Shown here: one piece after another, positions 24,277 through 43,724 of the stretch
Position numbering within the stretch: position 1 is the first letter of the stretch
How the letters are laid out: each line of letters begins with the position of its first letter
NCBI GenBank assembly: GCA_016490735.1
Contig: JAEMWC010001449.1
Location: 1-64,000, forward strand
DNA: 64,000 nt
Reading direction: 5' to 3'
Origin: Pachyseris speciosa
Taxonomy: Eukaryota; Cnidaria; Anthozoa; Scleractinia; Pachyseridae
Notes under the pieces: generated by a model
The model's input: the letters and a program-made list of their open reading frames with translations, nothing else
Told to the model about the DNA's origin: nothing
Databases searched by the model: none
Position numbers and translations under genes: made by a program

Positions 24277-24285
24277 ACATATATT

Positions 24286-25727: not shown

Positions 25728-25744
25728 TATAATATTAATTTAGA

Positions 25745-28522: not shown

Positions 28523-28599
28523 TTGTTTCCTGCTCCGGAAACATAATAAAAGTTAAAAGTTTTACAAACTCGGAGCTAAAAGTTAAAACTTATGAAATA

Positions 28600-28632
28600 T
28601 TTCGTCCGTTTTTTTCAACCGGACTTCATCAG
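28600..28632 (-). ncRNA. Hammerhead-like motif in the left Penelope arm
   Basis: On the minus strand: CTGATGA, an extra A, a GTCCG/CGGAC stem and GAAA. It mirrors the motif at 29470-29502. Confidence 0.45.
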
Positions 28633-28674
28633 TCAATGATATGAATGTTAAAAAGATGAATTTTAAAAAGGGTT

Positions 28675-28983
28675 TTAACGCCTCTTGGGGGTTAGAATTG
28701 CGTCATAGATAGCTGCTAATTCGTAACCATTGTCTCTGTTTAACGCCGGTTTCGTAAGTTTAATTTGAATAGCTTCTTTTATCCTGCGTTTGAAGGTGTT
28801 ACCTTCGGTTGATAGTACTTTTGTCTTATTTGGGTCCACCGAGTGGCCCTCCAGGCGACAATGCTCGTGAATAGCTGATGAACTTCTTGATTGGTGTTCT
28901 TTCACTCTGATTTCCAGAGAGCGGGCCGTTTCGCCAACGTACTCCTTGTCAAAATGAGAAGAAAATCTATGCATCAACGCCAT
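28675..28983 (-). pseudogene. GIY-YIG endonuclease fragment (Penelope left arm)
   Basis: Minus-strand frame containing KEYVGETARSLEIRVKEHQS, then HEHCRLEGHSVDPNKTKV, and ending TPKRR. It lacks the reverse transcriptase and the first strand of the GIY-YIG fold. Its 5' end is fused to the centre of the inverted element. Confidence 0.7.
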
Positions 28984-29075
28984 ACATCAAAGGAATCTCG
29001 GAACGCCTGCAAAGAGCTTTCAAGGCACACGAGGTCACACTTATTCATAAGCCCGTCAATTCTCTAAGATCACAA

Positions 29076-29426
29076 TTGGTACGTGTCAAGGACACAACTG
29101 TCAATCTCAAGAAATGCGGTACTGTGTACCAGATCCATTGTGAGAAGTGTAACAAGGAGTACGTTGGCGAAACGGCCCGCTCTCTGGAAATCAGAGTGAA
29201 AGAACACCAATCAAGAAGTTCATCAGCTATTCACGAGCATTGTCGCCTGGAGGGCCACTCGGTGGACCCAAATAAGACAAAAGTACTATCAACCGAAGGT
29301 AACACCTTCAAACGCAGGATAAAAGAAGCTATTCAAATTAAACTTACGAAACCGGCGTTAAACAGAGACAATGGTTACGAATTAGCAGCTATCTATGACG
29401 CAATTCTAACCCCCAAGAGGCGTTAA
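29076..29426 (+). pseudogene. GIY-YIG endonuclease fragment (Penelope right arm)
   Basis: Includes the start of the domain, CGTVYQIHCEKCNKEYVGET, followed by the same sequence as the left arm through TPKRR. In Penelope-like elements this domain is the C-terminal endonuclease that nicks target DNA. There is no reverse transcriptase upstream, so it is a truncated copy. Confidence 0.75.
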
Positions 29427-29469
29427 AACCCCTTTTTAAATTTCATCTTTTTAACATTCATATCATTGA

Positions 29470-29502
29470 CTGATGAAGTCCGGTTGAAAAAAACGGACGA
29501 AA
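29470..29502 (+). ncRNA. Hammerhead-like motif in the right Penelope arm
   Basis: CTGATGA (29470-29476), an extra A, then GTCCG (29478-29482) pairing with CGGAC (29494-29498), then GAAA (29499-29502). It has the best stem of the five intact hammerhead-like motifs in the window. Helix I partners are not obvious. Confidence 0.5.
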
Positions 29503-29649
29503 TATTTCATAAGTTTTAACTTTTAGCTCCGAGTTTGTAAAACTTTTAACTTTTATTTGATGATATTGTTTTAGATCCAACGGGTGTAGTTGATGAAAAA
29601 CCTTCAAAAATTTCAAGGTTTGTACCATTAACACGGATTGTCCATACAT

Positions 29650-31176
29650 CTATTTGACCATATCCCCCCCTGGAACAGTCAAAGTGTCATTTCCGAATCG
29701 AAACAAGTAATTTCCGTTTGCCATCAGGCGTGTGGCACTGATAAGTGGTTCATTAAATCCGAATTGGAATTGTGTTTGTTGTAAATGATACTGAATTCTC
29801 CTGATTGTTCTGACGATGAAAATTGATGTGAATGTGTTTCCTGATGGACCAGCAATGTCAGAAATGGATTGCCATGAATCAAGTCTGTATCCGCCTCTTA
29901 AGGTTTTGATAGAAAATCTGTTGTTATTCTCATCAAAAACCAATTGGGGTATATCACCAGAACTAATATATTTACCGCTCAAAGGGTCTGTCAATCTGGT
30001 GACTCCATTTGGTGATTTCACGGTCACATTCGAAGGAGAAACAAACCAAGAAATGTAATTACCATCAGGAATTGGCAAACTTGGGACTGAATTGTTTTTC
30101 AAATAAGTTGTTGTATTTATCTTGGCGTCAAGTTGTTTTTTAGTCACACAGTCATTATCATCAGTACCTTCTCCGACATTGATGATTTTGTTGTCATTCA
30201 TGTCGATGTCAACACCAAAAGCAACATCACCATTTTCAATCTCAAAAATAGGATCATGAATGTGTGAAAAAATGATGTTGTGATATCCATAAACACCATA
30301 AACTATCACATGATGTTTGGTATTATTTGATAAATATGGTGAGATCAACAACATGTCTATTGATGTAGATCGTTGACTTTTTTTCTCAAGGAAGAAAATC
30401 CTCTTCATGTAACCATCAACGAGATGAGTTTTCTGGAATGCTCTTTTTATCGAATCATTTCCTTCAACCAAATTGGATGACAGATCATCATCATCCACAG
30501 TAAAAGAATTCGGATTGTCAGTGTAATATTCAACAACAAATGTGTATTTGGAGACTTCCAATTGTGTCAGATTGAAGCGGACAACTGTTGTAAGACTGGC
30601 TGTGGGGATAACAAAAGACAATGATTTTTTATTCAGAATGTAAGGGCTTTTATTATAGTCTTCCAATTGCAGATTGTTAGCATTTCTGATGACTGTTGTT
30701 TTAGACACATCTTCTAGAAGGAATTTGAATGGATTGACACGTGTTCCTTCAATCGACAAAAGGGCTTTGTCGACATACTCCCTGAAGTTAAGGTATGATG
30801 AAACAACAAGTTCATCTGCATAAACCTTTGTGGCAGCATCTTTGTCATCAGTTGGTTCTGCTACATTTCTCATTTTTTTGTTTTGGATGTCATAATCACC
30901 ATCTTGTGTAAATCTAATTCCAAAACCTGTATCACCTTTATCACCTTTTGGACCCCTTAGACCAGTATTACCTTTCTCACCTTTAAAACCAAATGGACCT
31001 CTAGCACCAGTATCACCCTTATCACCTTTATCACCTTTTGGACCGACAGGACCTGTATTACCTTTTGGACCTGTTTCACCTTTATCACCTTTGGGACCAA
31101 TTGGACCAGCAGGGCCTCTTTCACCAGTTCCAGTTTTTGTTTTATCTTGATCTTGTAGAGAATTGAAAACTCCCAT
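29650..31176 (-). pseudogene. Large fibre protein, N-terminal part (collagen shaft)
   Basis: 508 residues starting MGVFNSLQDQD, matching the N-terminus of the smaller fibre. About 25 Gly-X-Y triplets follow (for example GPAGPIGPKGDKGETGPKGN), then RFTQDGDYDIQNKKMRNVAE, a phage-like fibre repeat with DAATKVYADE. Then comes a roughly 200-residue beta-rich module that recurs in the C-terminal part (SPYILNKKSLSFVI here, SPYHINKSSLSFII there), and a second fibre repeat (DIDMNDNKIINVGEG). The frame ends at 29650, just after a run of seven G on the coding strand (C7 at 29664-29670). Coding character continues in the -1 frame up to the Penelope insertion at 29555. It is preceded by TCTAAC (minus strand, 31193-31188). 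Confidence 0.75.
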
Positions 31177-31193
31177 TATATCATCTTGTTAGA

Positions 31194-31439
31194 TTAATTT
31201 TCTTCATCACTGCTTTCATCTTCCAAGAATTCAGGTGGTATGGTTTCATAGATGACAGGTAGTCTCTTATTGTTTTTCAATGCTTTTTGTGTCTTCTTGT
31301 ATACTTCCATTTTGATTTTTTCAGCGATTTCAGATGGTTCTTCGACATAATCGTCAGGTCTGGTCAAAGTCAATTTCTTGATTCTTTCTGTTCTGGGATT
31401 CTCGAGTTTTTCTGGATTTTGAAAATTGCTGATTGCCAT
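31194..31439 (-). CDS. Small conserved-type Polinton protein, unknown function
   Basis: 81 residues if started at MAISNFQNPEKL (ATG 31439), which sits in the standard promoter context (TCTAAT at 31455-31450, minus strand). An upstream ATG at 31469 would overlap the ATPase gene. It is charged, with an acidic end (EFLEDESSDEEN) and no recognisable fold. Position between ATPase and fibre genes suggests a virion or assembly role, which is an inference only. Confidence 0.55.
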   Translation of the reverse strand: MAISNFQNPEKLENPRTERIKKLTLTRPDDYVEEPSEIAEKIKMEVYKKTQKALKNNKRLPVIYETIPPEFLEDESSDEEN

Positions 31440-31455
31440 ATAATATTGGATTAGA

Positions 31456-32094
31456 TTAAACTGCACCATAAAAATTTCTCTTGATTGTCTTCATCGGCTT
31501 GTCAACATAACAGAAGGAATATGGTTTCTTGGTTGCTTCAATGTATTTCTTCTTGTCGATTCCAAGTTCTTGTGCAATCAAGTTCCTTTCTCTTGAGGAC
31601 GGGAAATCATAAATGCAGAAGTGACTGCAATTGAGTCTGATTGATTTTGGACAGCCATAGAATGATTGTGTGAGATATATGACTGAACAGTTCTTGTGTC
31701 TCCCCTGAATGAAATAGCTGATTATCTGATCTTGTTTCTTGTCAGTCACGAAATCATCAAAAACAACCAATCGCTGCAAATCTGTGTCTTTTATTTGTTC
31801 AACTGGCAATATCTCTTCTTGACTGCAAACTAAGGCAGGATATCCAATGTGACTGCTTATTTCATCCATGACTTTCCGCAGATATTGATACTTGTCTTGA
31901 TCCAAATTTTTTGCATAAAGATGTATCTGATCATAATAGACCAAAGGTTCCATAATCAGATGCATGAACAATGTTGTCTTTCCAGATCCAGAATTACCAG
32001 CCAATAACATTCTAAATGTATCTTTTGGCATATACGGATACAACTGTCTGAATGAATTCTTTGAACCCTGAATATCATAATTAGGGATTTCCAT
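31456..32094 (-). CDS. A32/FtsK-like DNA-packaging ATPase
   Basis: 212 residues. The Walker A motif GNSGSGKTT is at about residues 32-40 and Walker B LVVFDDF at about 112-118. A sensor-like YLTQSFYG follows. This is the HerA/FtsK-superfamily packaging ATPase found in Polintons, virophages and poxviruses (A32), which drives genome encapsidation. Length and order are typical. It is transcribed from the divergent promoter at 32095-32130, back to back with the plus-strand gene block. Confidence 0.9.
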   Translation of the reverse strand: MEIPNYDIQGSKNSFRQLYPYMPKDTFRMLLAGNSGSGKTTLFMHLIMEPLVYYDQIHLYAKNLDQDKYQYLRKVMDEISSHIGYPALVCSQEEILPVEQIKDTDLQRLVVFDDFVTDKKQDQIISYFIQGRHKNCSVIYLTQSFYGCPKSIRLNCSHFCIYDFPSSRERNLIAQELGIDKKKYIEATKKPYSFCYVDKPMKTIKRNFYGAV

Positions 32095-32130
32095 ATGTAA
32101 ATAGTTTAGATTAGTCTAACACAATTGTAT
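32095..32130. promoter_or_regulatory. Divergent promoter with TCTAA motifs on both strands
   Basis: Only 36 bases separate two divergent start codons. On the plus strand TCTAAC lies at 32115-32120, eleven bases before ATG 32131. On the minus strand TCTAAA lies at 32110-32105, eleven bases before ATG 32094. It is the clearest case of the element-wide motif. Confidence 0.6.
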
Positions 32131-32643
32131 ATGGATGTAGAACGTATGAAAAAGCTTCTTAAAAGTGGAATTGAAGCTGGAAATAAAACTAGAGAAGTTC
32201 GTGAGGTTATCAAGACTTATGAATACAGAAAACAGGATGCATATGATACAACATCAGAATTACTGAAACCCTCTATTGATGTCCAGAAGAGTGTGAAAGA
32301 AAGTGTAGACAAAAAACAGGATGAAGTCATTGAACAGTTGAAACAAAATCAAAAAGCCTTGACATCTGGTTTTGAAGATCTTATGCTATTAAACACGTTA
32401 CCTGAATCAGTACCTTTGAAAACAACATTACCAATTGATTACAAACCTAAAATGATGACTGAAACAGAAGCACCATATAAGTCAAATCTTGACAAAGGTT
32501 TCTCACTTGATGAGGTTAAGGTATTACAGGAATATGAATTGTCTCCACCAACAACAATTTTAAATAGGATAATGGATGGTACAATCGACATCGATGATTA
32601 CAAAAAGAAAATCGGAGATTTGACAAGGAAAGTTGGACGTTAA
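32131..32643 (+). CDS. Coiled-coil-type protein of unknown function, first part
   Basis: 171 residues from ATG 32131 (TCTAAC at 32115). Highly charged and helical (MKKLLKSGIEAGNKTREV, KQDEVIEQLKQNQKAL), probably coiled coil. It stops at TAA 32641-32643. The same frame then stays open to 32997, so the next ORF may be its C-terminal half separated by a nonsense codon. No family recognised. Position next to the capsid genes suggests a virion component. Confidence 0.6.
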   Translation: MDVERMKKLLKSGIEAGNKTREVREVIKTYEYRKQDAYDTTSELLKPSIDVQKSVKESVDKKQDEVIEQLKQNQKALTSGFEDLMLLNTLPESVPLKTTLPIDYKPKMMTETEAPYKSNLDKGFSLDEVKVLQEYELSPPTTILNRIMDGTIDIDDYKKKIGDLTRKVGR

Positions 32644-32997
32644 AAAGCTCATCTATCAACAACCAAAACAAACAGGGAAAAAAACAAAGAAAAGATATTC
32701 GAATTTGCTCAAAGGATCAAATTGCTGCAAAAGTACAGAAAAAGAATCGATGCTATTGAGGAAGGTGCACAAACTATTGGTTCAGGCATGGGAAGGAGAA
32801 GAGGTGCAATGGGTTCAAGGGATGCATTTTTGGCAGACATGCTTTCAAGACTGCAATTGCTTGGTGGATCTATTTCAGCCGGCAACAACAGCAAAAATGT
32901 TCAAAATGAATTCACAAAAATATTGCATACGTTGAACAGACTGGGAATCCTGAAAACCGGTGAGTTGAATAAAATAATGATGAAATATCTAATGTAA
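32644..32997 (+). CDS. In-frame continuation: basic protein of unknown function
   Basis: Directly after TAA 32641-32643 the same frame runs open for 117 codons (stop 32995-32997), with KIFEFAQRIKLLQKYRKRID, a Gly/Arg patch (GSGMGRRRGAMGS) and a helical end. The first ATG is late, at 32788; a TTG sits at 32722. It is either the C-terminal half of the preceding protein, now cut off by a stop, or a separate gene. The stop overlaps the TCTAA motif of the next gene (32988-32992). Confidence 0.5.
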   Translation, partial: KAHLSTTKTNREKNKEKIFEFAQRIKLLQKYRKRIDAIEEGAQTIGSGMGRRRGAMGSRDAFLADMLSRLQLLGGSISAGNNSKNVQNEFTKILHTLNRLGILKTGELNKIMMKYLM

Positions 32998-33003
32998 AAG
33001 TAT

Positions 33004-33789
33004 ATGACAGAAATTTCATTACGATTCAACAGTAAAAACAGAGACAAAATTGGTGTTAGTAAGAGTCATGATTTTGAAAAAAGATTCAATACACCTCTTA
33101 AATTAACGAATGATTTAAAATATGAAATGGCTGTGAATGTTATCAATATGACATACAGTTGGTACAATATCAGAGATATTTTTGAAAATAATCAAATGAA
33201 ATACAGCTATGACAAAGGTGTAAACTGGGAAACAATAACATTCGTTGACGGGATGTATTCATACGACGATATCAATAGTTACATTCATGAGTATATGAGA
33301 AAAAACAGCCATGTACTGAATCCATCTGAAACAGACAAATCAAAATTCATGTATGGTATTAACATGTATTTCGTTTTGTCAACATATCGCATTTTGATTG
33401 AACTTGATGAAAACTATCGAGTGGATCTGAGAAATCTTGATTTCAGAAAACTTATCGGTTTCAATTCAAAATTAGTTTCAGCCACAGAATATGGAACAAA
33501 TCTACCTGATATTACAAGAGGAGTAGATGAAATTTATATCAATTGTGATATGGTGATAGATAGCATTGTTGATGGAAATAGCACAAATACAATCGCAGTT
33601 ATACCAGTCACAGATCTCGTTAGAAGTTTACCTTTCACTTACAAACCTCGTTTTCTTTCATGGAATCCTGTCTCAACACATACAATCAGCTCAATACGCT
33701 TTTATGTCACAGACTCTTCTAGAGCTCCAGTCGATTTAAATGGGATAGATTGGTATATTGAGTTATTCTTGAGAGGGACAGAATTATAA
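33004..33789 (+). CDS. Minor capsid protein (penton-like, single jelly roll)
   Basis: 261 residues. The start ISLRFNSKNRDKIG..DFEKRFNTPLKL, then YEMAVNVINMTYSWYNI and YDKGVNWETITFVDGMYSY, is the recognisable profile of the Polinton minor capsid protein. That protein forms the pentons at the fivefold vertices of the icosahedral shell. It lies upstream of the major capsid gene as usual. Its promoter motif TCTAA at 32988 overlaps the preceding ORF's end. Confidence 0.85.
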   Translation: MTEISLRFNSKNRDKIGVSKSHDFEKRFNTPLKLTNDLKYEMAVNVINMTYSWYNIRDIFENNQMKYSYDKGVNWETITFVDGMYSYDDINSYIHEYMRKNSHVLNPSETDKSKFMYGINMYFVLSTYRILIELDENYRVDLRNLDFRKLIGFNSKLVSATEYGTNLPDITRGVDEIYINCDMVIDSIVDGNSTNTIAVIPVTDLVRSLPFTYKPRFLSWNPVSTHTISSIRFYVTDSSRAPVDLNGIDWYIELFLRGTEL

Positions 33790-33802
33790 AACCTAATAAT
33801 GT

Positions 33803-34056
33803 ATGAAACGGTTTGAGTTTAAGAAATATGAACAACATGGTGAAGGTGTCATGACTGACATTATCAAAACAGCTGGAAAAAAGCAGCAGAAAAAGCAGCC
33901 ACAACAATTGGTGAACATGCTGGCAAAAAAGCTGGTGACAAAATCATAGAACTTTTGAAAAAGAGAAAAAGTGGAAACAAGAGTGGAACTGAGAGTGTGA
34001 GCCAGACTGGTGGTTTAATCAAAAGAAAGAGAGGCCGACCGCGTAAAATCAAATGA
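33803..34056 (+). CDS. Small basic (pX-like) protein with an internal -1 shift site
   Basis: From ATG 33803 the zero frame encodes 48 residues (stop 33947-33949). At 33877-33883 the in-frame heptamer A_AAA_AAG occurs. The -1 frame from there is open to TGA 34054-34056 and encodes an Ala/Lys-rich helix followed by a KRKRGRPRK nuclear-localisation or AT-hook-like end. Small basic proteins of this kind accompany the major capsid gene in Polintons and adenoviruses and probably bind the packaged DNA. Either the longer product arises by frameshifting or one A was lost. No strong downstream stem is visible. Confidence 0.6.
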
Positions 34057-34086
34057 AAAACTAACTTTTATCTAACACAATAATAT

Positions 34087-35355
34087 ATGTCAAACTATCG
34101 TGACTCAAAATATATCGAAAGATATGAAGATGTAGTGTTCGAACTAGAGACAGCACTTAATACTGTAGTAGCAAACAATGCTCATCAGAGGAAAACAGGT
34201 TACCGTTTCGTTGTTGATAACAGTGGAGAGACTACACCATTTGACTGGTATAATGCCAGTTTTAATGTTATTTTCAAAGAAAATAAGCTTGCAGATGGAG
34301 CTGACATTGCTGCTGCAGATCGAAATGGTATTGTTAATTCAGTTCACGCTCTTATTAACACCATTAATGTAAAAATGAATGGTCTTGATGTTTATGAATG
34401 CCGTGATGCAAACCAAGCCACAAATATTAAGTCATTGCTTGAGTATTCACAGGGTTATGCTGTAAGTCAGGGAACCAATGAGTTCTTCTATCTTGACACC
34501 AGCAGAGGTGCTGAAAACAGAGTGGCACAAGCTGCTTATAACAAAGGATTCTCAGATCGTAAAGCTTTGCTTAATGATGGTGGTGAAATAAATGCAGAGA
34601 TAGCATTGAACAGATACGGTTTTTTCAAGAGCTTTTGGGATGAACTCATGCCTAACTCAAAAGTAGAGGTGAACCTAACACTTGAGAGTGATGACAATTT
34701 GATTTGGCAAGCTACTGATGAATGTCGTGTGGTACTAACTAAATTCCAGCTAATTGTTAATTCTGCGGGAAAGTCATTATACATGAGCAAGTATCTTGAC
34801 AACAGAAAGTGGACTTACATGAGAGAAATGGTTGAGAGAGGCAATTCAACAAGACAACAGACTGCCAATTTCCGTATTTCCACAGGAATAAACAAACCCA
34901 GGCATGTCTTTGTATTCATCATCAATGATGCTAATGATTCGTCTCAGACAGCCAATCAATTTCTCTATAACACCTTTTCAGTTGCAAATAACCGAACTTT
35001 GACTGATTGTTATCTTGAAGTTGGCAATGGAAATGATTATCCAGAGGTTCATTATAAACCCTCAACAGAACCAACAAGAGTATTTAGAGATGTTTTGAAA
35101 TATGTTCAAGCTGTAAATGATTTCAGTGAAAGTACCCTTCTCACAAGAGGAAACTTTGGTACAATATTCCCTTTCATTTACTTTGATCTGACAAAACAGA
35201 AGCAGGACATAAAAGATGGAATGACAAAACTGACTTTCAAATACACTTTGAGTGATGGAACAAATGCTGATTACAGTGTGTATGCATTGGTCCTCTATGA
35301 GCAGGATATTGAGATGAAAAAGACTGATGGAAAATTAATTCTGAGATCAATGTAA
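34087..35355 (+). CDS. Major capsid protein (double jelly roll)
   Basis: 422 residues. The profile fits the Polinton hexon-like protein: YIERYEDVVFELETALNTVV near the start, TPFDWYNASFNVIF, FFKSFWDELMPNSKVEVNLT, and the final beta strands before LILRSM. Trimers of two jelly rolls build the T-number lattice of the capsid. An ideal promoter context is present (TCTAAC 34071-34076, then ATATATG). The frame is intact. Confidence 0.88.
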   Translation: MSNYRDSKYIERYEDVVFELETALNTVVANNAHQRKTGYRFVVDNSGETTPFDWYNASFNVIFKENKLADGADIAAADRNGIVNSVHALINTINVKMNGLDVYECRDANQATNIKSLLEYSQGYAVSQGTNEFFYLDTSRGAENRVAQAAYNKGFSDRKALLNDGGEINAEIALNRYGFFKSFWDELMPNSKVEVNLTLESDDNLIWQATDECRVVLTKFQLIVNSAGKSLYMSKYLDNRKWTYMREMVERGNSTRQQTANFRISTGINKPRHVFVFIINDANDSSQTANQFLYNTFSVANNRTLTDCYLEVGNGNDYPEVHYKPSTEPTRVFRDVLKYVQAVNDFSESTLLTRGNFGTIFPFIYFDLTKQKQDIKDGMTKLTFKYTLSDGTNADYSVYALVLYEQDIEMKKTDGKLILRSM

Positions 35356-35474
35356 ATGGAATAATTAAATTAAATTAAATAAATTAAATAAATAATTAAA
35401 TAAATTAAATAAATTAAATAATTAAATTAAATGATTGTTTGTATTAAATACAATTTAGTATAAACATATATTAT
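35356..35474. repeat. AT-rich intergenic repeat (TTAAATAAA)n
   Basis: About 70 bases of AAATTAAATAA repeats between the major capsid and protease genes. There is no TCTAA motif here; the protease gene instead has TATAAACATATATTATATG. Confidence 0.8.
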
Positions 35475-36701
35475 ATGACTACTTATCATCCTCATGGAGT
35501 GAAACTTTCACAGGGTCAGAAACAAAAGCTAGCAAAAGCTTATGCAACAAATTCGCCTGTAACAATCAGGTTGACACATAGTGAATTGTCTGGAAATGAT
35601 CAACTAATGTTGACTAAGACACAAATCAACAAACTGATGAAATCAAGAAGATCAGGAAAAGGTTCAGACATCAAGATATCAAAAAATCAAATCAGAAAAG
35701 CAGTTGTAGAAGGAGGCTCTCTTTGGTCCAGTCTTTATTCACTTGGAACAAGACTATTGCCTTATGCAGGTAAAGCAGTAGCTAAAGCGGCTCCAGCATT
35801 GGCTACAGGTGCTCTTTCTTCATTAGCAAGTCTCGGTGTTGATAAACTATTTGGGAAGAAAAAAAGTGGAGGATTTCTTATTCCTAATGCCAATTTATCC
35901 CAATTATTGAATGTAGGAAATTTATTGAATACGAGACAGATGGCAGATATTATTCAAAAAATGCAGTATGGTGGAGACGTTGTTATCAAACCAACAAAAG
36001 CGCAGACTGGAAAGGGTATTGGAACAATACTCGCCAGTATTGGAATTCCTTTGGCTATAGAAGCAATCAGAAAATTAACTGGAAAAGGTTTGCATGTTGA
36101 AAGCAGCCGTCCAAGACGGTCATTAGATGTTCACGTTCCAATCGGTTATGGAATGAAAAAAAAAAGACAAAAAAAAGGGAAAAGGGCTTCTGTTAGGCAA
36201 AGACAGTCCATTCAATTCAATCCCAATTCTGGGAACCATTTTGTAAACAAACCCTTATCCAACTTCGATTTAATCAATTGGGTTAAACAACTTGGAATAA
36301 AACATTTCAGAGGAGTATTTTCAAGAGACAATCTGCCGACGAGGAGACAAATCAAAAACAATGAATGTGGAATAGTCAATCTTGACAGTAAGATTGGACC
36401 TGGCACTCACTGGGTTTGTTATCGCAATGGGGGTAAATACTGTGAATACTTTGACTCATTTGGTTTAATGATGCCAACAGAAGTACAGAAATACATGGCT
36501 ACAAGTGGAAAACAACTTGAATACTCTGGAGATGAGATACAAGAAAGAGATTCAGTCTTGTGTGGATATTGGTGTTTGTACTATCTTCTCGAGAGACAGA
36601 ATGGTAAATCGATTCTGAACACAATACATAATGCTGATTTTGATCCCACAGACACAAGTGTCAATCACAGATTCATTATAGATTACTTCGAAAATATCTA
36701 A
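35475..36701 (+). CDS. Core protein fused to adenain-like cysteine protease
   Basis: 408 residues. The first 230 are basic, with a SHPHGVKLSQGQ-like start (YHPHGVKLSQGQKQKLAKAY). An Ala-rich amphipathic segment (GKAVAKAAPALATGALSSLA) and a GYGMKKKRQKKGKR patch follow, resembling adenovirus-type core/membrane-lytic minor proteins. The last 160 residues are a Ulp1/adenain-fold protease: catalytic His in GTHWVCY (about residue 312), Asp in YFDSFG (about 327) and Cys in CGYWC (about 363). The protease would mature the capsid and could release its own N-terminal half. The stop codon TAA is embedded in the next gene's TCTAAC motif (36697-36702). Confidence 0.85.
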   Translation: MTTYHPHGVKLSQGQKQKLAKAYATNSPVTIRLTHSELSGNDQLMLTKTQINKLMKSRRSGKGSDIKISKNQIRKAVVEGGSLWSSLYSLGTRLLPYAGKAVAKAAPALATGALSSLASLGVDKLFGKKKSGGFLIPNANLSQLLNVGNLLNTRQMADIIQKMQYGGDVVIKPTKAQTGKGIGTILASIGIPLAIEAIRKLTGKGLHVESSRPRRSLDVHVPIGYGMKKKRQKKGKRASVRQRQSIQFNPNSGNHFVNKPLSNFDLINWVKQLGIKHFRGVFSRDNLPTRRQIKNNECGIVNLDSKIGPGTHWVCYRNGGKYCEYFDSFGLMMPTEVQKYMATSGKQLEYSGDEIQERDSVLCGYWCLYYLLERQNGKSILNTIHNADFDPTDTSVNHRFIIDYFENI

Positions 36702-36710
36702 CTAAATTAT

Positions 36711-36851
36711 ATGGAAACAATTATTGTGCAAGTTGTTGGAACACCTGTTGTAGTTCGTAATGACAAGATAATGATAGTACTCAAGAACCAATTCGGCGAA
36801 GATGTTATAATAATATGTGAAGTGAAACAAGTTTTTAAAGAAAATATCTAA
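36711..36851 (+). CDS. 46-residue ORF of unknown function
   Basis: From ATG 36711 to TAA 36849-36851; beta-prone and valine/isoleucine-rich (METIIVQVVGTPVVV). It has the regular promoter context (TCTAAC 36697) and its stop again overlaps the next TCTAAC (36847-36852). Expression is plausible only from this context; there is no homology to invoke. Confidence 0.45.
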   Translation: METIIVQVVGTPVVVRNDKIMIVLKNQFGEDVIIICEVKQVFKENI

Positions 36852-36863
36852 CCAATATGTATA

Positions 36864-37022
36864 ATGGTAAAATCATATTGTGTGAAACAGAAGAAAGTCA
36901 CTGAATGTGTACCAGGAAGTGAAAGATATCAAAAGACAAAAAATGGTCGAACTGTGATGAAATGTACTTGTGCTGAATGTGGAATCACAAAGACTAAATT
37001 TGTCAGAAATCGGGGAAACTAA
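36864..37022 (+). CDS. 52-residue zinc-type protein (DUF5679-like), first ORF of a frameshift cassette
   Basis: ATG 36864, stop TAA 37020-37022. The profile is YCVK..., then KTKNGRTVMKCTCAECG, then TKFV, close to the short YCVKC...CPVCG zinc proteins found in viruses. Here the second cysteine of the first pair is Gln (CVKQ) while CAEC is intact. TCTAAC at 36847 lies upstream. The last three sense bases read G_GGA_AAC directly before the stop, a canonical -1 slippery heptamer, with a hairpin beyond. Frameshifting would join it to the phospholipase A2 frame. Confidence 0.6.
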   Translation: MVKSYCVKQKKVTECVPGSERYQKTKNGRTVMKCTCAECGITKTKFVRNRGN

Positions 37023-37045
37023 TTAGCCCGTCTGAAGGGGCGGGC
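37013..37045 (+). promoter_or_regulatory. Predicted -1 frameshift signal 1 (G_GGA_AAC + hairpin)
   Basis: The slippery heptamer is at 37013-37019 in the zero frame of the 36864 ORF, immediately followed by the stop TAA. After a six-base spacer an 8-bp hairpin spans 37026-37045: stem 26-33 with 38-45, six GC and two GU pairs, four-base loop GAAG. The -1 frame starting at 37019 is open without interruption into the PLA2 ORF. The GC-rich patch is conspicuous in AT-rich surroundings. Confidence 0.7.
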
Positions 37046-37066
37046 ATACTAGATTCGGCCGCAGAT

Positions 37067-37705
37067 ATGGCACTAACAGGATTTTTGGAACATGGAGTCC
37101 CTTATTTAGCGAAGAAGGGTGTTGAAATGGGTAGATATTATGCATCAGAAGCAATGAGAAATCCAAAGCTGCAAAAGCAATTGATTAATAAAGGACTTTC
37201 CCTCACAAAGCCTATAATTACAAAGGTTGGGACTGAAGCTTTAAATCAACTGTCAACAAAAGTGAGACCAAACATTCGTTATAAAACAGATATCAAGGGA
37301 TTGGATTATGGCAAAGGTATTGACATTCACAAGATGATCGGCAAACTACCAAAACCCAAAGCTGGCTGGACACCAAGTAAATATAAATATATGGGACCTT
37401 ACAATCCATTGCATGAGCAGTTGGAATATGATCCAAATACTGGTGAGGTCTTGAAATGGAATGTACAACCTTATAACAAAGTGGATGAAATAGCAGCTTA
37501 CCATGATATTTGTTATGATATGGGAAAAAATAAAGGTGATTGTGATAGAACAATGGTCGAGTCACTAGATCAAATACCATATGGTGAGATGCCAAAATGG
37601 GGTCAAACAGCTAGATTCTTAATTGACAAAAAACAGAAATTAGGTCTTGGTGTTTCAAAAAACGGAAAAAGCCGTCGAGTGAAGAAAACTGGCAAGAAAA
37701 ACTAG
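37067..37705 (+). CDS. Phospholipase A2 (parvovirus-type) ORF
   Basis: 212 residues from ATG 37067, although the frame is open from 37019 and could be entered by frameshift instead. The Ca-binding loop YMGPYNPL is at about residues 108-115 and the catalytic pair in AAYHDICYD has His at about 146. The rest of the active region KNKGDCDRTMV follows. This matches the virion PLA2 domain of parvovirus VP1 and of some Polintons, used to breach endosomal membranes. The N-terminal third is Lys-rich and of unknown fold. There is no TCTAA motif before ATG 37067, unlike most neighbours. Near the 3' end lies A_AAA_AAC (37657-37663), a second slippery site leading into integrase. Confidence 0.82.
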   Translation: MALTGFLEHGVPYLAKKGVEMGRYYASEAMRNPKLQKQLINKGLSLTKPIITKVGTEALNQLSTKVRPNIRYKTDIKGLDYGKGIDIHKMIGKLPKPKAGWTPSKYKYMGPYNPLHEQLEYDPNTGEVLKWNVQPYNKVDEIAAYHDICYDMGKNKGDCDRTMVESLDQIPYGEMPKWGQTARFLIDKKQKLGLGVSKNGKSRRVKKTGKKN

Positions 37706-37750
37706 CTGATGAATTACATGCACCCATAAAACGAAATTTCACTCGGCGGC
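37657..37750 (+). promoter_or_regulatory. Predicted -1 frameshift signal 2 (A_AAA_AAC + 13-bp stem)
   Basis: Heptamer A_AAA_AAC at 37657-37663 in the PLA2 frame, then a seven-base spacer GGAAAAA. A 13-bp stem follows: 37671-37683 pairs with 37738-37750, with twelve Watson-Crick pairs and one GU, closing a 54-base loop. The -1 frame from 37663 is the integrase frame. Spacing and geometry are those of retroviral frameshift signals; the long loop could form a pseudoknot. Confidence 0.75.
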
Positions 37751-38625
37751 GTGTGATTGTAAATACAATTGATGAAATATGGGCAAGTGATCTAGTTGAA
37801 ATGCAACAGTTCAGTAAATGGAATAATGGTTATCGATATCTTCTTATGGTTATTGATGTCTTCAGCAAATATGGTTGGATTGTCCCATTGAAGGATAAGA
37901 AAGGTGAATCTGTCACTGAAGCATTCAAATCAATATTCAAGGAAGGCAGAAAACCACAGTATTTATGGGTTGATAAAGGTAAAGAGTTTTACAACAAACA
38001 CTTGAAGGACTTGCTAGAGAAACATAGTGTACAGATGTACTCAACTGAGAATGAAGAGAAGTCATCAGTAGTTGAAAGATGGAATAGGACAATGAAGTCC
38101 AAAATGTGGAAGCAGTTCACTGTTCAAGGTAATACACAGTATTTAGACATGTTACCAAAATTAGTGAAACAGTACAACAACACAAAACATTTAAGCACAA
38201 AGATGACACCCGTTGAAGCATCTGATAAGAGGAATGAAGGAACTGTTTACTTCAATTTGTATGGTGATATGGAGCCATTAAAACAGAAACCGAAATTTAA
38301 AATAGGTGATAAGGTCCGAATATCCAAGTATAAACGGAATGTGTTCGACAAGGGTTACACTCCAAATTGGACTGAGGAAGTGTTCACAGTTGATAAGATT
38401 CAATACACTAATCCAATAACATACAAACTAAAAGATCACAACGATGAAGAAATACAAGGGAGTTTTTATGAACCTGAGTTATTAAAGGCTAAACAGGATG
38501 TATTCCGTATTGATAAAGTCATTCGCAGAGATTACAAGAAGAAACAAGCTTTGGTGAAGTGGAAGGGATATAGTGATGACTTCAACAGTTGGGTACCATT
38601 TAGGGATTTAAGGAATATTATCTAA
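37663..38625 (+). CDS. Retroviral-type integrase with C-terminal chromodomain, no ATG of its own
   Basis: The frame opens inside the PLA2 gene after a TGA near 37640 and contains no ATG before the conserved domain. NWQEKLADELHAPIKRNF leads into the rve core. Catalytic residues are D in WASDLVEM, D in WVDKGKEF, and E in VVERWNRTM about 34 residues later (DDE). An SH3-like strand region follows (KFKIGDKVRISKYK), and a chromodomain ends the protein (RIDKVIRRDYKKKQALVKWK, then GYSDDFNSWVPFRDL). The integrase cuts the 6-bp-staggered target, and the chromodomain may steer insertion to modified histones. Expression most simply requires -1 frameshifting from the PLA2 frame. A non-AUG start (GTG 37753) is possible but would cut conserved N-terminal sequence. 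Confidence 0.85.
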   Translation, partial: RKKPSSEENWQEKLADELHAPIKRNFTRRRVIVNTIDEIWASDLVEMQQFSKWNNGYRYLLMVIDVFSKYGWIVPLKDKKGESVTEAFKSIFKEGRKPQYLWVDKGKEFYNKHLKDLLEKHSVQMYSTENEEKSSVVERWNRTMKSKMWKQFTVQGNTQYLDMLPKLVKQYNNTKHLSTKMTPVEASDKRNEGTVYFNLYGDMEPLKQKPKFKIGDKVRISKYKRNVFDKGYTPNWTEEVFTVDKIQYTNPITYKLKDHNDEEIQGSFYEPELLKAKQDVFRIDKVIRRDYKKKQALVKWKGYSDDFNSWVPFRDLRNII

Positions 38626-38672
38626 CATATATATGTAGACCCTACAGTAAAAAGCTGTTATTTGCTAATGGT

Positions 38673-38698
38673 AGCCAAGAATATTATTATTCCTGACT
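38673..38698. terminator. Imperfect hairpin downstream of integrase
   Basis: AGCCAAGAATA pairs with TATTCCTGACT around TTAT. It is part of an ~85-bp segment repeated at 39598-39694. A transcript-end hairpin, as in some giant viruses, is one reading. Confidence 0.4.
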
Positions 38699-38754
38699 AT
38701 ATTTAAACACAGGTTGAAAATGAATTAAAGAATATTATCTAATGTATATAACAT

Positions 38755-39595
38755 ATGATGAGTATGCAAAAATATTCCTACGATAATAAAGAATTGGATG
38801 TATCAATAGATTGTTATCTTGATGATAAAAATGACGTTTGGTTCAGAGGAAGAGACATTGCTAAAATTCTTGACTACAAAAATCCACAAAGAGCAATTCA
38901 GAGATTATGTTGTATCGGATGATAAAATCTTAAGAGACCACAAAATCAGCATAAATTCACGGGGGACAAAAATGGTCCCTCGTGCTGAGACCACTGATTC
39001 ACGGGGGACAAAAATGGTCCCTCGTGCTGAGACCCCCGAAAAAACTTTCAAATGTTTCTTCATAAATGAATCTGGACTTTATTCACTAATACTGTCCTCT
39101 AAAAAACAGGAAGCAGTAAAATTCAAACATTGGGTTACATCGAAAGTATTACCATTAATCAGAAAACAAGGATATTACAAACAGTTCAATGATAGAAGCA
39201 ACAACATGATATTAATTGAAAGTGAAAATGATTTGCATTATAAGATTGTTTCATTCATCAGAAAGAAATATGAAGACGCATTAATGATAGCCGGTTTAGG
39301 TGAAAATCAAATAAGCTCAAATATGAGAATCAGAAGTTATAACAAAGGATATATGTCTGGACAATGTGATTTGATGTTAATGAATCCCACCAGAAAATAC
39401 AATGCTCTTTGTCTTGAATTCAAAAGTCCCACTGGTGTATACCAAGTGTCGGAAAAACAAACGATCATGAAGCAGATGTATGAAAAAAACAAGTGCAGAT
39501 ACATCATGAGCAATTGTTTTGAAGATTTGATTTATGAAATAACCAAACACATGGAAGAAAGCAAATTGTATTTATCACGTATAGGAAAAAACTAA
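38755..39595 (+). pseudogene. BRO-N domain protein with VRR-NUC-like nuclease domain, frame broken
   Basis: From ATG 38755 the first frame encodes 55 residues of a BRO-N domain (VWFRGRDIAKILDYKNPQRA), then meets TGA 38920-38922. The rest of the domain (VVSDDKILRDHK, then FINESGLYSLI and WVTSKVLPLIRKQG) is in the +1 frame, which runs to 39595. The break lies near 38898, where one extra base would explain it. The C-terminal half has LHYKIVSFIRKKYEDALMIA, GLGE, GQCDL and LEFKSPTG...SEKQ, the PD-(D/E)xK motifs of VRR-NUC-type nucleases. A 39-bp hairpin-forming unit is duplicated in frame inside BRO-N (38958-39035). The promoter motif TCTAA is at 38738. Confidence 0.7.
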
Positions 39596-39613
39596 CTTTT
39601 ATCTAACCTATAT

Positions 39614-39706
39614 ATGACAGAGAGGTCAGTATTTTTGAATAATACTGTATTTTGCTATTTTGGTAGCCAAGAATATTTTTATTCCTGGCTATTTATTTTG
39701 TGATGA
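39614..39706 (+). other. 30-codon ORF behind a promoter motif
   Basis: TCTAAC at 39602-39607 and then TATATATG give a perfect start context. The ORF is only 30 codons and runs through the hairpin into the end of the polymerase gene. It is probably a relic: the parallel copy at 38621-38635 has ATG followed at once by TAG. Confidence 0.3.
39665..39690. terminator. Hairpin between the convergent BRO and polymerase genes
   Basis: AGCCAAGAATA (39665-39675) pairs with TATTCCTGGCT (39680-39690) with one mismatch and a four-T loop. The polymerase stop codon (39681-39679, minus) lies inside it. It is symmetrical, so it could end transcripts from both sides. Confidence 0.45.
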
Positions 39707-42612
39707 CCATAAGCATAACTGTTGATTCCGTCTTTTGATATATATCTTTTGTCATCGAAGCAACTGAGTGATACTTTGTTGATTTCATAGCTTCCTAATT
39801 GATGGTTTTCACTTCTGATTGTTTTCATTTTATGATACATTTGTTTATCATTGAATAGAGTGTCTTTATAATTTTCATGCTTGATTTCATTTTTGATTGT
39901 GTTCTTTTTGATTCCTTTTGCTGTTTTTCGTCCTTTCTGATCATCTTTCATATAGCTATACATCTTCGATCTCAGTCCTACGAATTCATATATTGGGACT
40001 CCAGCAGCCTCATCTTTCATCTTACCAATCACTTTCTTATTGGTCTTATCGGAGAATGGCGAGCTTTCAGGATAGTCACTGTTATCGAATTTATCATTCC
40101 AGAAATCCCTATAGACATCTTCTGCCTCAATTTCATATGTCAAACTGTCCGTGTCAGTGAAGAGCAGCTTGGCCTTCTTCCCATACTTTTGTTTGATGTA
40201 GTTGTAATGGAAATCATACATGAGCGTCTTACTAAGATCTAGAATACACATTCCTACGTAAGCCGGCCTGTTCAAAGTTAATGTTTCTTTGATCTTGTGC
40301 ACTGCAACCAGATTTTCATTGAATATCTTACTGCTAACATAAGTTGGTTTACTGGTTAATTTCAATAGCTTCTTCTCATCTGTCACCAATCTGACATCTA
40401 CTCTCTTTCTGAGATTCTCCATAGTTTTGCCAAATACTGAGTTGTTCATTAACTTGAAGAAATCCTTCTCGAAAGCATTCTTAGCATTGGTTCTTTTCCG
40501 TGTATTGAAATCAATGTACTGTCTCAGCCAAGGTGATTGTTTGAACTCTAGCACTCTGTGGATTTTTGTTACCTTTAAACCCAAGTCTGTGTATAATTGG
40601 AGGTTCCTGTAATGCAGAACATACTTCTCTTTGTTGCTTAATGTTGGTATCAGTTTATGTACCAAACCAGTCGATATATTGTATTTCTCTGCTATGTCTT
40701 TACAGTAATCTGACAGCATGTCTCCAGTTACTTTCACCTTCTCTGGTCCAAGCGGGTAATCATTGTGCAGATCATGCAACTCCTGGGGATATTCCAGATC
40801 AACTTCCAGAATCAAACCCTTATTGCTGTCTTCTCTATACTTTGCCAGGTTGAGATTATTCATTTTATTCTCAGTCATCCATTTGAATCCACCAGTTGGG
40901 AGGTATTGGCTCATTGCCCATCCGTATAGATTGTTTGCATCAAGATACATGATGTACTTTGAGGGCGCCTTCTCATCATACTTCTTCATGTATTTATTAT
41001 TAGCTTTACCGTAACGGTTAGCAATATAGCTGATACCACCTCTCATACCCTTTTCAATGAACTGGAACATATCAATGTCAGTCATTAATTCTAATTTGAT
41101 ATCAGTCATCTTCAGCATAGCATCCCATGACAAACCAGGAGATGTGAAGTAGTGACACGGATCCAGTTTGTAGTACTCGAGACATGTTCTTCTGAAGTTC
41201 TCAAATACATCAGCCAACAGGAGTACGTCTGTTTTGAGGTACAGATCATGATACTCACCCATGTTGTTTAAGGAGAATGTATTCCAAACAGTCTGAGCAT
41301 GTGCATAGTCTTCATCTGATAAATGCGTATCACTCAGTATGCTGTAGAATTCTTCTTTTGAGGGTAGCTTCTGATTGAATTTATCGAAACTATCCATATA
41401 GTCATAGGGATAAACACCTTTCTGTGCCATCAGATTAAGATCCTTTCCCTTGAACTCTTGTGAGGTGTATTTTAAGGCTTCTTTTGGTAGATTGCCTACA
41501 AGTTTTTCCAAACTAGAGCTCATGAACTGGAAACTATCAAGAAATGTTAGGTGATTGCCAAGCATGAAAGCCATATACTTCTCCATGTTATTTGGGATAG
41601 CATTGATCGTCATTTGACAGTCTTCACCTTTTTTATTTGTGAAGGTGTGTTTCTTGACAATGGCTCCAATCTCCTGCATAATAAAATGACTATCATAACC
41701 TCTTAGATTGTGAAATATAACAGGTATCTTTATTTCTTCTGGATTGACTCTAAGTTTCAGGTTACATTCTTGATGAGCTGATCCTCTATACTGACCAGTA
41801 ATATGGCAGTGATCTCGTACCCGGATATCTTTGTCAGCGTATTTTTTATCACAAATGTGACATTCTTTGGCTTTTTTAAATTCCTTCTTATCTTCTTTTG
41901 TCATTTTCAATGGTTTGTTGAATGCTTTTTTTACAATCTTCTTGCAATATACAACTTCCTCCAACATAGCTTCCATGAATTTGTACACAGCTTTTTCACC
42001 CCTAAATATTGCTGCAGGTTTGCTGTATTTATCGTCATAACAACAAACAACCTTGTAACCGTATCCACAATCAGTATGCTTCTGATAGGCTTCAGTATAT
42101 GATTTATCATTGTTGGGTTGGCAACTGTGTATTTTCTCAGTTATAGCCTCAAAATCAGCATAGATCACAAATGGTACCTGCTGTTGTTTATGGAAGTTGT
42201 TGAATTTCAGTATGTTGTTATCTTTGTTTGGCATCTTTATTGCTTGTGTGCCATTAACTTGCATGCAGTTGTCCTTATGATCATTCAAGACCCTTTCTGA
42301 GCTGAAACATTGTAGACAGTGCATGCAGAAGTGTTTTCTTTCATTATGCTTCGTTATGTTGCGCATGAATCTGTTCAAATCTTTGATTAAAACGTAGTGT
42401 TTGTTTTCATTTTCTGTAATCAATAGAAGATTCAAACGGTCTTCATACTTTTCTTTTGAAACATAAATTGGATATGGTTGTTTGTTTTCATAACTGAATA
42501 CATTAATGTTGATCTCATTTTGTTTTTCTATTTTGTTGTACTGTTTGGTTGTGACAGGGAATTCAACACCCGAATAATCTAACGTATTAATATATTTTCT
42601 ATCAGATTTTTT
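39679..42612 (-). CDS. polB: Protein-primed family B DNA polymerase, main part
   Basis: Open for about 975 codons after a TAA at 42615-42613; there is no in-frame ATG at its beginning, so it continues from the upstream ORF. Positions below are counted from a TTG at 42435. A C2H2-like finger (FCMHCLQCFSSERVLNDH) is at about 37-60 and Exo I YADFE at 92-96. An HNH/endonuclease-VII-like module (CHICDKK...DHCHITGQYRGSAH) is at about 190-220, Exo II YDSH near 247 and Exo III YLKTD further on. Then come Pol A DANNLYGWAM near 500, Pol B NNSVFGKT near 665 and Pol C FTDTDSL near 760. These are the Polinton PolB hallmarks. The enzyme replicates the element from its protein-capped ends. Transcribed inward from the right TIR. 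Confidence 0.92.
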   Translation of the reverse strand, partial: KKSDRKYINTLDYSGVEFPVTTKQYNKIEKQNEININVFSYENKQPYPIYVSKEKYEDRLNLLLITENENKHYVLIKDLNRFMRNITKHNERKHFCMHCLQCFSSERVLNDHKDNCMQVNGTQAIKMPNKDNNILKFNNFHKQQQVPFVIYADFEAITEKIHSCQPNNDKSYTEAYQKHTDCGYGYKVVCCYDDKYSKPAAIFRGEKAVYKFMEAMLEEVVYCKKIVKKAFNKPLKMTKEDKKEFKKAKECHICDKKYADKDIRVRDHCHITGQYRGSAHQECNLKLRVNPEEIKIPVIFHNLRGYDSHFIMQEIGAIVKKHTFTNKKGEDCQMTINAIPNNMEKYMAFMLGNHLTFLDSFQFMSSSLEKLVGNLPKEALKYTSQEFKGKDLNLMAQKGVYPYDYMDSFDKFNQKLPSKEEFYSILSDTHLSDEDYAHAQTVWNTFSLNNMGEYHDLYLKTDVLLLADVFENFRRTCLEYYKLDPCHYFTSPGLSWDAMLKMTDIKLELMTDIDMFQFIEKGMRGGISYIANRYGKANNKYMKKYDEKAPSKYIMYLDANNLYGWAMSQYLPTGGFKWMTENKMNNLNLAKYREDSNKGLILEVDLEYPQELHDLHNDYPLGPEKVKVTGDMLSDYCKDIAEKYNISTGLVHKLIPTLSNKEKYVLHYRNLQLYTDLGLKVTKIHRVLEFKQSPWLRQYIDFNTRKRTNAKNAFEKDFFKLMNNSVFGKTMENLRKRVDVRLVTDEKKLLKLTSKPTYVSSKIFNENLVAVHKIKETLTLNRPAYVGMCILDLSKTLMYDFHYNYIKQKYGKKAKLLFTDTDSLTYEIEAEDVYRDFWNDKFDNSDYPESSPFSDKTNKKVIGKMKDEAAGVPIYEFVGLRSKMYSYMKDDQKGRKTAKGIKKNTIKNEIKHENYKDTLFNDKQMYHKMKTIRSENHQLGSYEINKVSLSCFDDKRYISKDGINSYAYGHHKINSQE

Positions 42613-43522
42613 TTATTCTCTGAGGGTCTTTAGCTTGCGGATTCAAGTGCCTGATATGACACCATCTGAAGCATTCATTGTCATTATTCTTCATGTTAAT
42701 CAATCCCTTCATTCCGTTCATTAATTCTTGAGGTAGTTTAATATATGATGAGCCTTTCATTGGCTGATATATTACAGCATTGAGATAATGTCCATCAACT
42801 GATTTCACAACCCAACCAGATCCTTCTGAAATCCAAACTGCAATCCTATTTAATATATTTTGTTTTGACACTTGAAGTGATTCACTAATCTCCAGATTAT
42901 TTATGATTGTTTGAGGTGGGCTGTTGAAAAAGACTGTTTTCTGTATTATTTCCCCATCAGACATTTTTTTGAATGTTACCTTCAGTGTTTCAACAGATTT
43001 GAGTCCTTTCATTGAATTCAGTAAACTCATAAGACGGTACGCGACAGTCTTTCTTGTGTTTTGCAGTTGTAATAGCGGGTCTTTGTTATTCTTAATATCT
43101 ATTTGAAATGATTTAGTATATCCTTTGAGAGCTTTATCCGTTTGCTCTATCTTGGTCCTTGGTTCTGGTATTGGTGCTGGTTTTTTAGTTCTTGGTGCTG
43201 GTACTGGTCTATCTCTAAATTCTGATGGTGGAAGAATCACATTGTCTTCATGATCTTGAACCATCTGCTTCACACCCTTGCGAGGTGTTGGAATTGGCTT
43301 CTGTTTTTTGATGTTATCAGCGAGACTAACTAATCGCCTCATCTCGCCAACATCCATTTGGCTTAATCTTTTCAATAATTCTTTGAAAATACTATTTTTA
43401 TTTTCCATGTCCATATTACTAGTATATATTATTTTTTCACTCAGATCATTTACCATCTGGCTACCTGATCTGATTCGATTGGGCTTTTCCGAGGCCCGGA
43501 GACTTCTTTCTTTATTCTCCAT
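42602..43522 (-). CDS. polB: Polymerase B N-terminal region, separated by a one-base break
   Basis: 306 codons from ATG 43522 inside the right TIR; a later ATG is at 43456. It contains a Pro-rich linker (KPIPTPRKGVKQMV, RPVPAPRTKKPAPIPEPRTK). A conserved alpha/beta region follows (YTKSFQIDIKNNKDPLLQLQ) with a C-terminal ECFRWCHIRHLNPQ, all typical of the N-terminal region of Polinton PolB. It ends at an eight-A run on the coding strand (42614-42607) where the main polymerase frame takes over one base further on. Loss of one A, slippage or +1 shifting would join the two; as it stands the gene is interrupted. Confidence 0.8.
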   Translation of the reverse strand: MENKERSLRASEKPNRIRSGSQMVNDLSEKIIYTSNMDMENKNSIFKELLKRLSQMDVGEMRRLVSLADNIKKQKPIPTPRKGVKQMVQDHEDNVILPPSEFRDRPVPAPRTKKPAPIPEPRTKIEQTDKALKGYTKSFQIDIKNNKDPLLQLQNTRKTVAYRLMSLLNSMKGLKSVETLKVTFKKMSDGEIIQKTVFFNSPPQTIINNLEISESLQVSKQNILNRIAVWISEGSGWVVKSVDGHYLNAVIYQPMKGSSYIKLPQELMNGMKGLINMKNNDNECFRWCHIRHLNPQAKDPQRIKKI

Positions 43523-43718
43523 AACAACCTAAAGCGACATGTCTTTAAGTGTTTTTCACATTCCAGGGTACTTAAAGAGATGACCTTGACCTTGGCAACT
43601 ATCAATGGGGTCACGTGACCTTGACAATTCGATGATCTTGACCTTGACAATTCAATGACCTTGACCTTAGCAGCCATTATATGGAAAATGCGCTAGCTCA
43701 CCCAAACACTATACTACT
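43438..43718. repeat. Polinton right terminal inverted repeat
   Basis: 281 bp, complement of 22952-23232 with about four substitutions, ending CTATACTACT. Flanked by AAGTTT at 43719-43724. It supplies the start region of the polymerase gene, as the left copy does for the zinc-ribbon gene. Confidence 0.93.
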
Positions 43719-43724
43719 AAGTTT

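Follow-up and report, generated by a model that had tools for sequence, protein, structure and literature searches.

Putative serial −1 frameshift signals joining a zinc-type protein, a phospholipase A2 and an integrase in a coral Polinton

The window analysed here is a stretch of 64,000 nucleotides from the coral Pachyseris speciosa (contig JAEMWC010001449.1, positions 1 to 64,000), and it holds a Polinton element in which the genes for a small zinc-type protein, a phospholipase A2 (PLA2) and an integrase overlap in series. Each open reading frame (ORF) is offset by −1 from the previous one, and both overlaps carry a canonical slippery heptamer with a strong helix behind it. Judged from the sequences of this and many related copies, the cassette very probably uses double −1 programmed ribosomal frameshifting to give three nested products: the zinc protein, a zinc–PLA2 fusion and a zinc–PLA2–integrase fusion.

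Results

Three overlapping frames and two putative slip sites

A sequence-only reading of the window had proposed that the three ORFs follow one another with −1 offsets and that a slippery heptamer lies in each overlap. The frame coordinates bore out the serial arrangement, and canonical heptamers, read in the zero frame and each followed by a strong helix, were confirmed in both overlaps. The features of the cassette are as follows.

36864..37022, + strand: zinc-type ORF of 52 amino acids, zero frame, with its stop codon at 37020-37022
36998..37705, + strand: open PLA2 frame, −1 relative to the zinc ORF and entered at 37016; first ATG at 37067, HDxxY motif at 37502
37013..37019, + strand: slip site 1, G_GGA_AAC, in the zero frame and touching the zinc stop codon
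37020..37025, + strand: spacer 1, 6 nt, starting with the zinc stop codon
37026..37045, + strand: hairpin 1, a GC-rich 8-bp stem with a 4-nt loop
37627..38625, + strand: open integrase frame, −1 relative to PLA2, with rve domain and chromodomain; first in-frame ATG at 37801
37657..37663, + strand: slip site 2, A_AAA_AAC, 39 nt 5' of the PLA2 stop codon
37664..37670, + strand: spacer 2, 7 nt
37671..37684, + strand: 5' arm of stem 2, pairing over 14 bp with 37737-37750 around a 52-nt loop
37737..37750, + strand: 3' arm of stem 2

The Pfam search of the cassette returned Phospholip_A2_4 (1.3e-7), rve (8.3e-10) and Chromo (2.5e-7), and the zinc ORF gave a weak match to DUF5679 (E 6.7e-4) that stays below the cut-off. 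Searched against the PDB, the integrase matched integrases (best 3e-7; foamy virus 2.9e-6), and PHROGs added to this only transposase-type and unnamed matches. Its catalytic residues, assigned by eye, lie at 37789, 37972 and 38074. No relatives were found in the viral-contig scans made with the integrase, the integrase alignment and the PLA2 alignment, and all eight weak Rfam matches scored below the gathering score.

Slippery heptamers are common in the element (197 on both strands), and seven of them are in phase within the three ORFs. The helices are much rarer. For their ranking, the best uninterrupted helix starting 5-9 nt 3' of each of 41,314 element positions on both strands was recorded. 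Helices at least as strong as that of site 1 were found at 33 of these positions, which form six clusters including both slip sites; those at least as strong as that of site 2 were found at five positions, in one cluster that is site 2 itself. The helix of site 2 is thus the strongest in the element, and within the cassette no helices rank above those of the two sites. Both sites show the layout known for −1 programmed frameshifting: each overlap contains an X_XXY_YYZ heptamer that is read in the zero frame, and a structure follows 6 nt (site 1) or 7 nt (site 2) downstream.

Conservation of the zinc–PLA2 slip site

The fold of 37013-37056 had a z-score of −3.25, with none of 200 shuffles folding as well, and that of 37020-37080 a z-score of −2.19 (4 of 200). 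The predicted stem of hairpin 1 closes a loop of 4 nt, so short that an H-type pseudoknot would hardly fit.

Of the loci compared, 68 contain the region, and 57 of these match a pattern that allows any one of three heptamers before the hairpin: GGGAAAC in 54, GGGAAAA in two and TTTAAAC in one. The spacer is 6 nt long in all 57 loci, and all pairs of hairpin 1 are intact in 55, in one of these by way of a T-G to T-A change. Five loci (L022, L034, L037, L042 and L055) have the zinc stop codon 12 codons further on and still retain heptamer and hairpin. The 11 non-matching loci were inspected singly; in ten, a single frame runs through zinc and PLA2, and the last (L039) is of the same type with a further frame break.

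The genome (984 Mb) contains many copies of the element, of which 40 were scored out of 1,866 candidates. Twenty-nine are close siblings (94-96% identical), and not one of the 29 has a length change within 37013-37045 or 37657-37750. Variants common to at least two siblings comprise 16 synonymous, three non-synonymous and no stop changes in the zinc ORF, 77 synonymous and 38 non-synonymous changes in PLA2 (37067-37655) and 84 and 42, respectively, in the integrase; the synonymous share expected for such variants is 25-27%. Between the zinc stop codon and the ATG at 37067, a stretch too short to decide, changes that are synonymous in the −1 frame make up three of five shared and two of five single variants. 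In 12 of the 29 siblings the zinc stop codon is TGA instead of TAA, a change that is silent in the −1 frame.

The sequence of hairpin 1, with one loop base left free, occurs 1,293 times genome-wide, and the reversed control does not occur at all. Exactly 6 nt 5' of it stands GGGAAAC in 1,170 cases and TTTAAAC in 55 (1,225 of 1,293 together), with 68 hairpins left unclassified by heptamer; AAAAAAC was found at this distance from none of the genome-wide hairpins. The TTTAAAC copies have several different spacers, and one locus (L066) shows TTTAAAC in phase.

The identity of the outgroup copy L031 to the window is 63% for the zinc protein, 55% for the matched part of PLA2 and 77% for the integrase. 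It keeps the −1/−1 layout, GGGAAAC, the 6-nt spacer and an identical 8-bp stem, here with a GAAA loop. In the codons of hairpin 1, seven of seven third positions equal those of the window, versus 43-54% at other identical residues; these seven were read directly, as the PLA2 alignment of the test ended short of the hairpin. The survey for −1 overlaps and slippery heptamers that had been suggested, run on copies in the same genome, thus found site 1 kept as far as L031 and site 2 kept within the family.

The PLA2–integrase slip site

The fold of 37656-37760 had a z-score of −2.49, and three of 200 shuffles folded as well. Of 67 loci, 62 have AAAAAAC in phase with the integrase frame. The five exceptions are L031, which has A_AAA_AAA, L040 and L062, in which the frames are joined, and L039 and L065, in which the heptamer is broken. 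One pair of stem 2 is T-G in 63, T-A in three and C-G in one of the 67 loci, and a second is G-C in 63 and G-T in four; a stem pair is broken in one locus (L062).

Low variation at site 2 was considered as additional support and dropped, having proved not to be exceptional.

Start codons and the presumed single message

In the PLA2 frame, 56 of 57 loci have no ATG 5' of heptamer 1. Past the heptamer, the first one comes at codon 18 (in the window, 37067), at codon 29 in five loci of one subfamily (L038, L041, L047, L048 and L052) and at codon 76 in L031. For the integrase, the first in-frame ATG of the window (37801) is 3' of the first catalytic Asp (37789), and 56 of 64 scored loci likewise have none before this residue.

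A motif that recurs in the element stands before the zinc ORF.

36845..36852, + strand: TATCTAAC motif, possible late promoter or leader of the cassette, 19 nt before the zinc ATG

Its general form, TATCTAAY, occurs seven times on the + strand of the element (32986, 34069, 36695, 36845, 38619, 38736 and 39600). Six of the seven sit 14-19 nt before an ATG, that of the zinc ORF included, and some overlap the stop codon of the preceding ORF; none lies between the three ORFs of the cassette. The motif is a possible late promoter, similar to the TCTA-type late motifs of related viruses. Its number in the whole window (nine) is unremarkable, as the shuffle mean is 5.3 and 10 of 100 shuffles reach nine.

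In-frame copies with a second zinc ORF

The ten loci with zinc and PLA2 in one frame (L033, L043, L054, L061-L065, L067 and L068) lack the slip site, the stop codon and the hairpin, and belong to a common class; even continuous zinc–PLA2–integrase copies exist. Among 12 in-frame loci for which upstream DNA was included, a further zinc ORF lies just upstream in eight (L033, L039, L043, L072, L073, L074, L076 and L077). The same search with the same threshold, applied to 0.6-1.5 kb of upstream DNA, found none in 56 frameshift loci (L001-L060 minus four); Fisher's test gave p 7e-8, uncorrected for relatedness. The simplest reading would be that the element needs both free zinc protein and zinc–PLA2, and obtains them either by frameshifting or by duplication. 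Four in-frame loci without a further zinc ORF (L054, L070, L071 and L075) do not fit this reading.

The second zinc domains are joined to varied partners, with coiled-coil-like N-terminal or other C-terminal parts (L033, L043, L072-L074, L076 and L077), as if the zinc domain were used like a tag on several proteins of the element.

Relatives from other genomes

The three protein searches had 6,249, 884 (PLA2) and 553 (zinc protein) matches, of which the best 120 each were listed. Among the relatives listed, one has a named source, Oculina patagonica (P0078). Of the best 120 among 553 zinc relatives, 48 have GN as their last two residues, which is compatible with GGA AAC, two have LN and one has KN; 56 extend through codons of the hairpin (NGLARxxGRAY type). 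The end of PLA2 was readable in 111 of the best 120 of 884 relatives, the nine without an anchor being set aside; it is KN in 84 and LN in 18 (102 of 111), and neither in nine. Some zinc–PLA2 models from other genomes are continuous (P0141, P0165 and others), and the public gene models that fuse PLA2 to integrase join them at varying points.

In most of the 51 PLA2 relatives that could be read there (P0122-P0241), the PLA2 domain is immediately preceded by an LDGxG or LDGGx motif; the window has a variant, LDYGKGIDIH, at 37290-37330. The motif resembles the cleavage consensus of adenovirus-type proteases, and the fusion protein may be cut after assembly.

Weighing of the frameshift reading and its alternatives

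Several observations weigh against double frameshifting. At site 1, the stem is broken in L004 and L035. The copies are related to one another, and their counts are not independent; outside the two signals, length changes occur in the cassettes of several siblings and break zinc or PLA2 in some. The evidence from other species consists of protein-level hints that fit other codons too, and in some PLA2 models there (P0009 type) the start codon is a −1-frame ATG that lies within the zinc ORF. The support for site 2 is weaker than that for site 1, since the outgroup L031 has an A_AAA_AAA run without the stem, and its integrase frame has an in-frame ATG upstream. Besides the broken heptamers of L039 and L065 and the broken stem pair of L062, the third-position test at site 2, with 12 of 17 versus 113 of 208, revealed no clear excess. 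PLA2 and integrase share a single frame, open over more than 400 amino acids, in 1 of 124 and 6 of 125 scored copies, and joined frames were seen in L040, L062 and L063.

One alternative is a gene that was continuous in the ancestor and lost its single frame through decay or an error of assembly. The window copy is indeed decayed elsewhere, with its DNA polymerase (PolB) in two frames, and the continuous zinc–PLA2 and zinc–PLA2–integrase copies could be taken as the ancestral state. However, the PolB split seems private to the window copy, as the net length of this stretch, the quantity compared, is not that of the window in 38 of the 39 other copies scored from 1,052 candidates; the slip sites, by contrast, are unchanged in all 29 siblings. 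The offsets are not decay because none of these siblings has a length change at the sites, heptamer and hairpin 1 occur together in 1,225 copies, and L031 keeps the offsets. The original proposal had also asked whether the offsets might be unique to a decayed copy. They are not, as siblings and divergent subfamilies share the offsets, the heptamers, the spacers and hairpin 1, but single continuous frames do exist, as a whole class at site 1 and as a minority at site 2. From the copies compared, the decay reading is already refuted for site 1, and we regard its overall probability as close to negligible. Short introns joining the frames are very improbable. GT/GC-AG pairs of the right phase, mostly kept in the siblings, number, as raw counts, eight at junction 1 and ten at junction 2, and junction 2 is bridged in many public gene models by joins that vary. 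Yet these models disagree with one another, as predictors do when forced across a frameshift, and introns leave the heptamer, the spacer, the hairpin and the alternation of GGGAAAC with TTTAAAC unexplained.

It is unlikely that PLA2 and integrase are started separately, PLA2 by reinitiation or leaky scanning and the integrase by a non-AUG or leaky start. Such starts are favoured, and frameshifting disfavoured, by the ATG of PLA2 in the window, which lies only 44 nt past the zinc stop codon and makes a separate start possible, and by a −1-frame ATG in L031, 15 codons before the heptamer inside the zinc ORF, from which PLA2 might begin. An in-frame ATG also precedes the first Asp of the integrase in 8 of 64 loci, in three of them (L040, L062 and L063) owing to joined frames. 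On the other side stand the near absence of a −1-frame ATG before heptamer 1 and its late first occurrence in the codon-29 subfamily, the in-frame fusion of zinc to PLA2 in relatives and the absence of TATCTAAY before PLA2 and integrase; separate starts would moreover leave the heptamers and helices unexplained. For site 2, slippage of RNA polymerase on the A run could replace the ribosomal shift, as it does in some bacterial insertion sequence (IS) elements (PMC5009743). The run is six A long in the window and longer in L031, where it has no stem. This alternative gives the 14-bp stem at 7 nt no role, and site 1 has no long run; we consider it quite unlikely.

The Polinton element in the window

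The element shows the hallmarks of a Polinton, namely terminal inverted repeats (TIRs), a 6-bp target-site duplication (TSD), an rve integrase and a Pox_A32 ATPase. Its features outside the cassette are the following.

22952..43718, strand not assigned: Polinton element of ~20.8 kb, bounded by TIRs and TSD
22952-23236 and 43434-43718: TIRs, an inverted repeat of 287 nt, 98% complementary
22946-22951 and 43719-43724: TSD AAGTTT, 6 bp, read on both flanks
31456..32115, − strand: packaging ATPase (Pfam Pox_A32, E 8.5e-17)
34084..35355, + strand: major capsid candidate, with a weak double jelly-roll (DJR)-like match below the cut-off (E 0.028)
35448..36701, + strand: ORF 5' of the cassette, with a minor-capsid-like and a cysteine-protease-like part recognised by eye

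The names of the two parts of the last ORF are tentative, and Pfam gives no support for either. The candidate for a protein-primed PolB is a minus-strand ORF of 977 amino acids, in which polymerase-like motifs were recognised by eye; Pfam returned Endonuclease_7 (1.1e-5) and no polymerase model for it. The PolB region (39679-43528, − strand) is split over two frames in the window copy.

On the − strand, large ORFs at 24705-31188 contain collagen-like GxxGxKGDKG repeats and repeated modules (by eye), and probably encode surface or fibre proteins. A nested inverted-repeat insertion at 28545-29557, which has GIY-YIG-like ORFs (by eye) and is perhaps of Penelope type, adjoins a large fibre-like ORF (25745-28552). 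At 32110-32997 (+ strand), a single stop codon parts two ORFs of the same frame, which may reflect decay or readthrough.

Discussion

Under the frameshift reading, a single mRNA beginning just before 36864 would be read as three nested proteins. Most ribosomes would end after the 52-residue zinc protein. Part of them would be stalled by the 8-bp hairpin, which begins 6 nt past G_GGA_AAC, slip by −1 on this heptamer and produce zinc–PLA2; part of those would be stalled in turn by the 14-bp stem, which begins 7 nt past A_AAA_AAC, slip by −1 again there and produce zinc–PLA2–integrase. The outcome would be free zinc protein, zinc-tagged PLA2 and a little zinc–PLA2-tagged integrase in a set ratio, and the zinc part might carry PLA2 and integrase into the particle. 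Whether the whole forms a gag-pro-pol-like Polinton polyprotein, with products in fixed ratio and with the integrase and PLA2, a membrane-acting enzyme, riding into the particle on the zinc protein as a small virion component, while sister lineages instead duplicate the zinc gene and fuse one copy in frame to PLA2, we regard as evenly balanced.

In retroviral gag-pro-pol, the integrase lies at the far end. If the cassette works as proposed, a DNA element and the retroviruses would have converged on one solution, and this would be a sign of Polinton particles that carry integrase. Such particles would become a testable prediction, with a fixed product ratio and a zinc-tagged integrase. Recoding would also reach a further kind of mobile element in animals, one that is DNA-based and has its own polymerase and capsid candidates, and there would be a reason why public integrase gene models end early or are bridged at places that differ.

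The expectation that frameshifting of zinc, PLA2 and integrase in Polintons had not been described agrees with the open-licence PMC literature, in the portions of the papers available, where we found no such description. In these portions of the Polinton literature, the word 'frameshift' is absent or refers to degraded or erroneous sequence or to a search setting. A related case is that of adintoviruses, for which a preprint suggests, from KnotInFrame predictions, a −1 frameshift near the 3' ends of Penton ORFs, and proposes frameshifting for Hexon-Adenain fusions too (PMC11071296). It concerns related elements with other genes and is prediction only; the accessible text describes no serial double shift and no zinc–PLA2–integrase cassette (PMC11071296).

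The serial double −1 shift is otherwise a retroviral theme in the literature excerpts examined. The beta- and deltaretroviruses (mouse mammary tumour virus, MMTV; Mason-Pfizer monkey virus, MPMV; human T-lymphotropic virus, HTLV) make double −1 gag-pro-pol shifts over overlapping frames, with the heptamers GGGAAAC (MPMV and others) and AAAAAAC (MMTV, HTLV) and spacers of 6-7 nt (PMC3835772, PMC5009743). The parallel drawn in the sequence-only reading holds for layout and heptamers (PMC3835772, PMC5009743). The cassette is thus like these viruses in its two serial −1 shifts, its heptamers and its 6-7 nt spacers; the retroviral sites are listed there with pseudoknots, whereas hairpin 1 of the Polinton has a 4-nt loop. 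Unlike bacterial IS3-type transposase frameshifting, the proposed mechanism has a eukaryotic host, two shifts and a PLA2 in the middle, and unlike the retroviruses it belongs to a DNA element, whose parts are a zinc-type protein, a PLA2 and an integrase.

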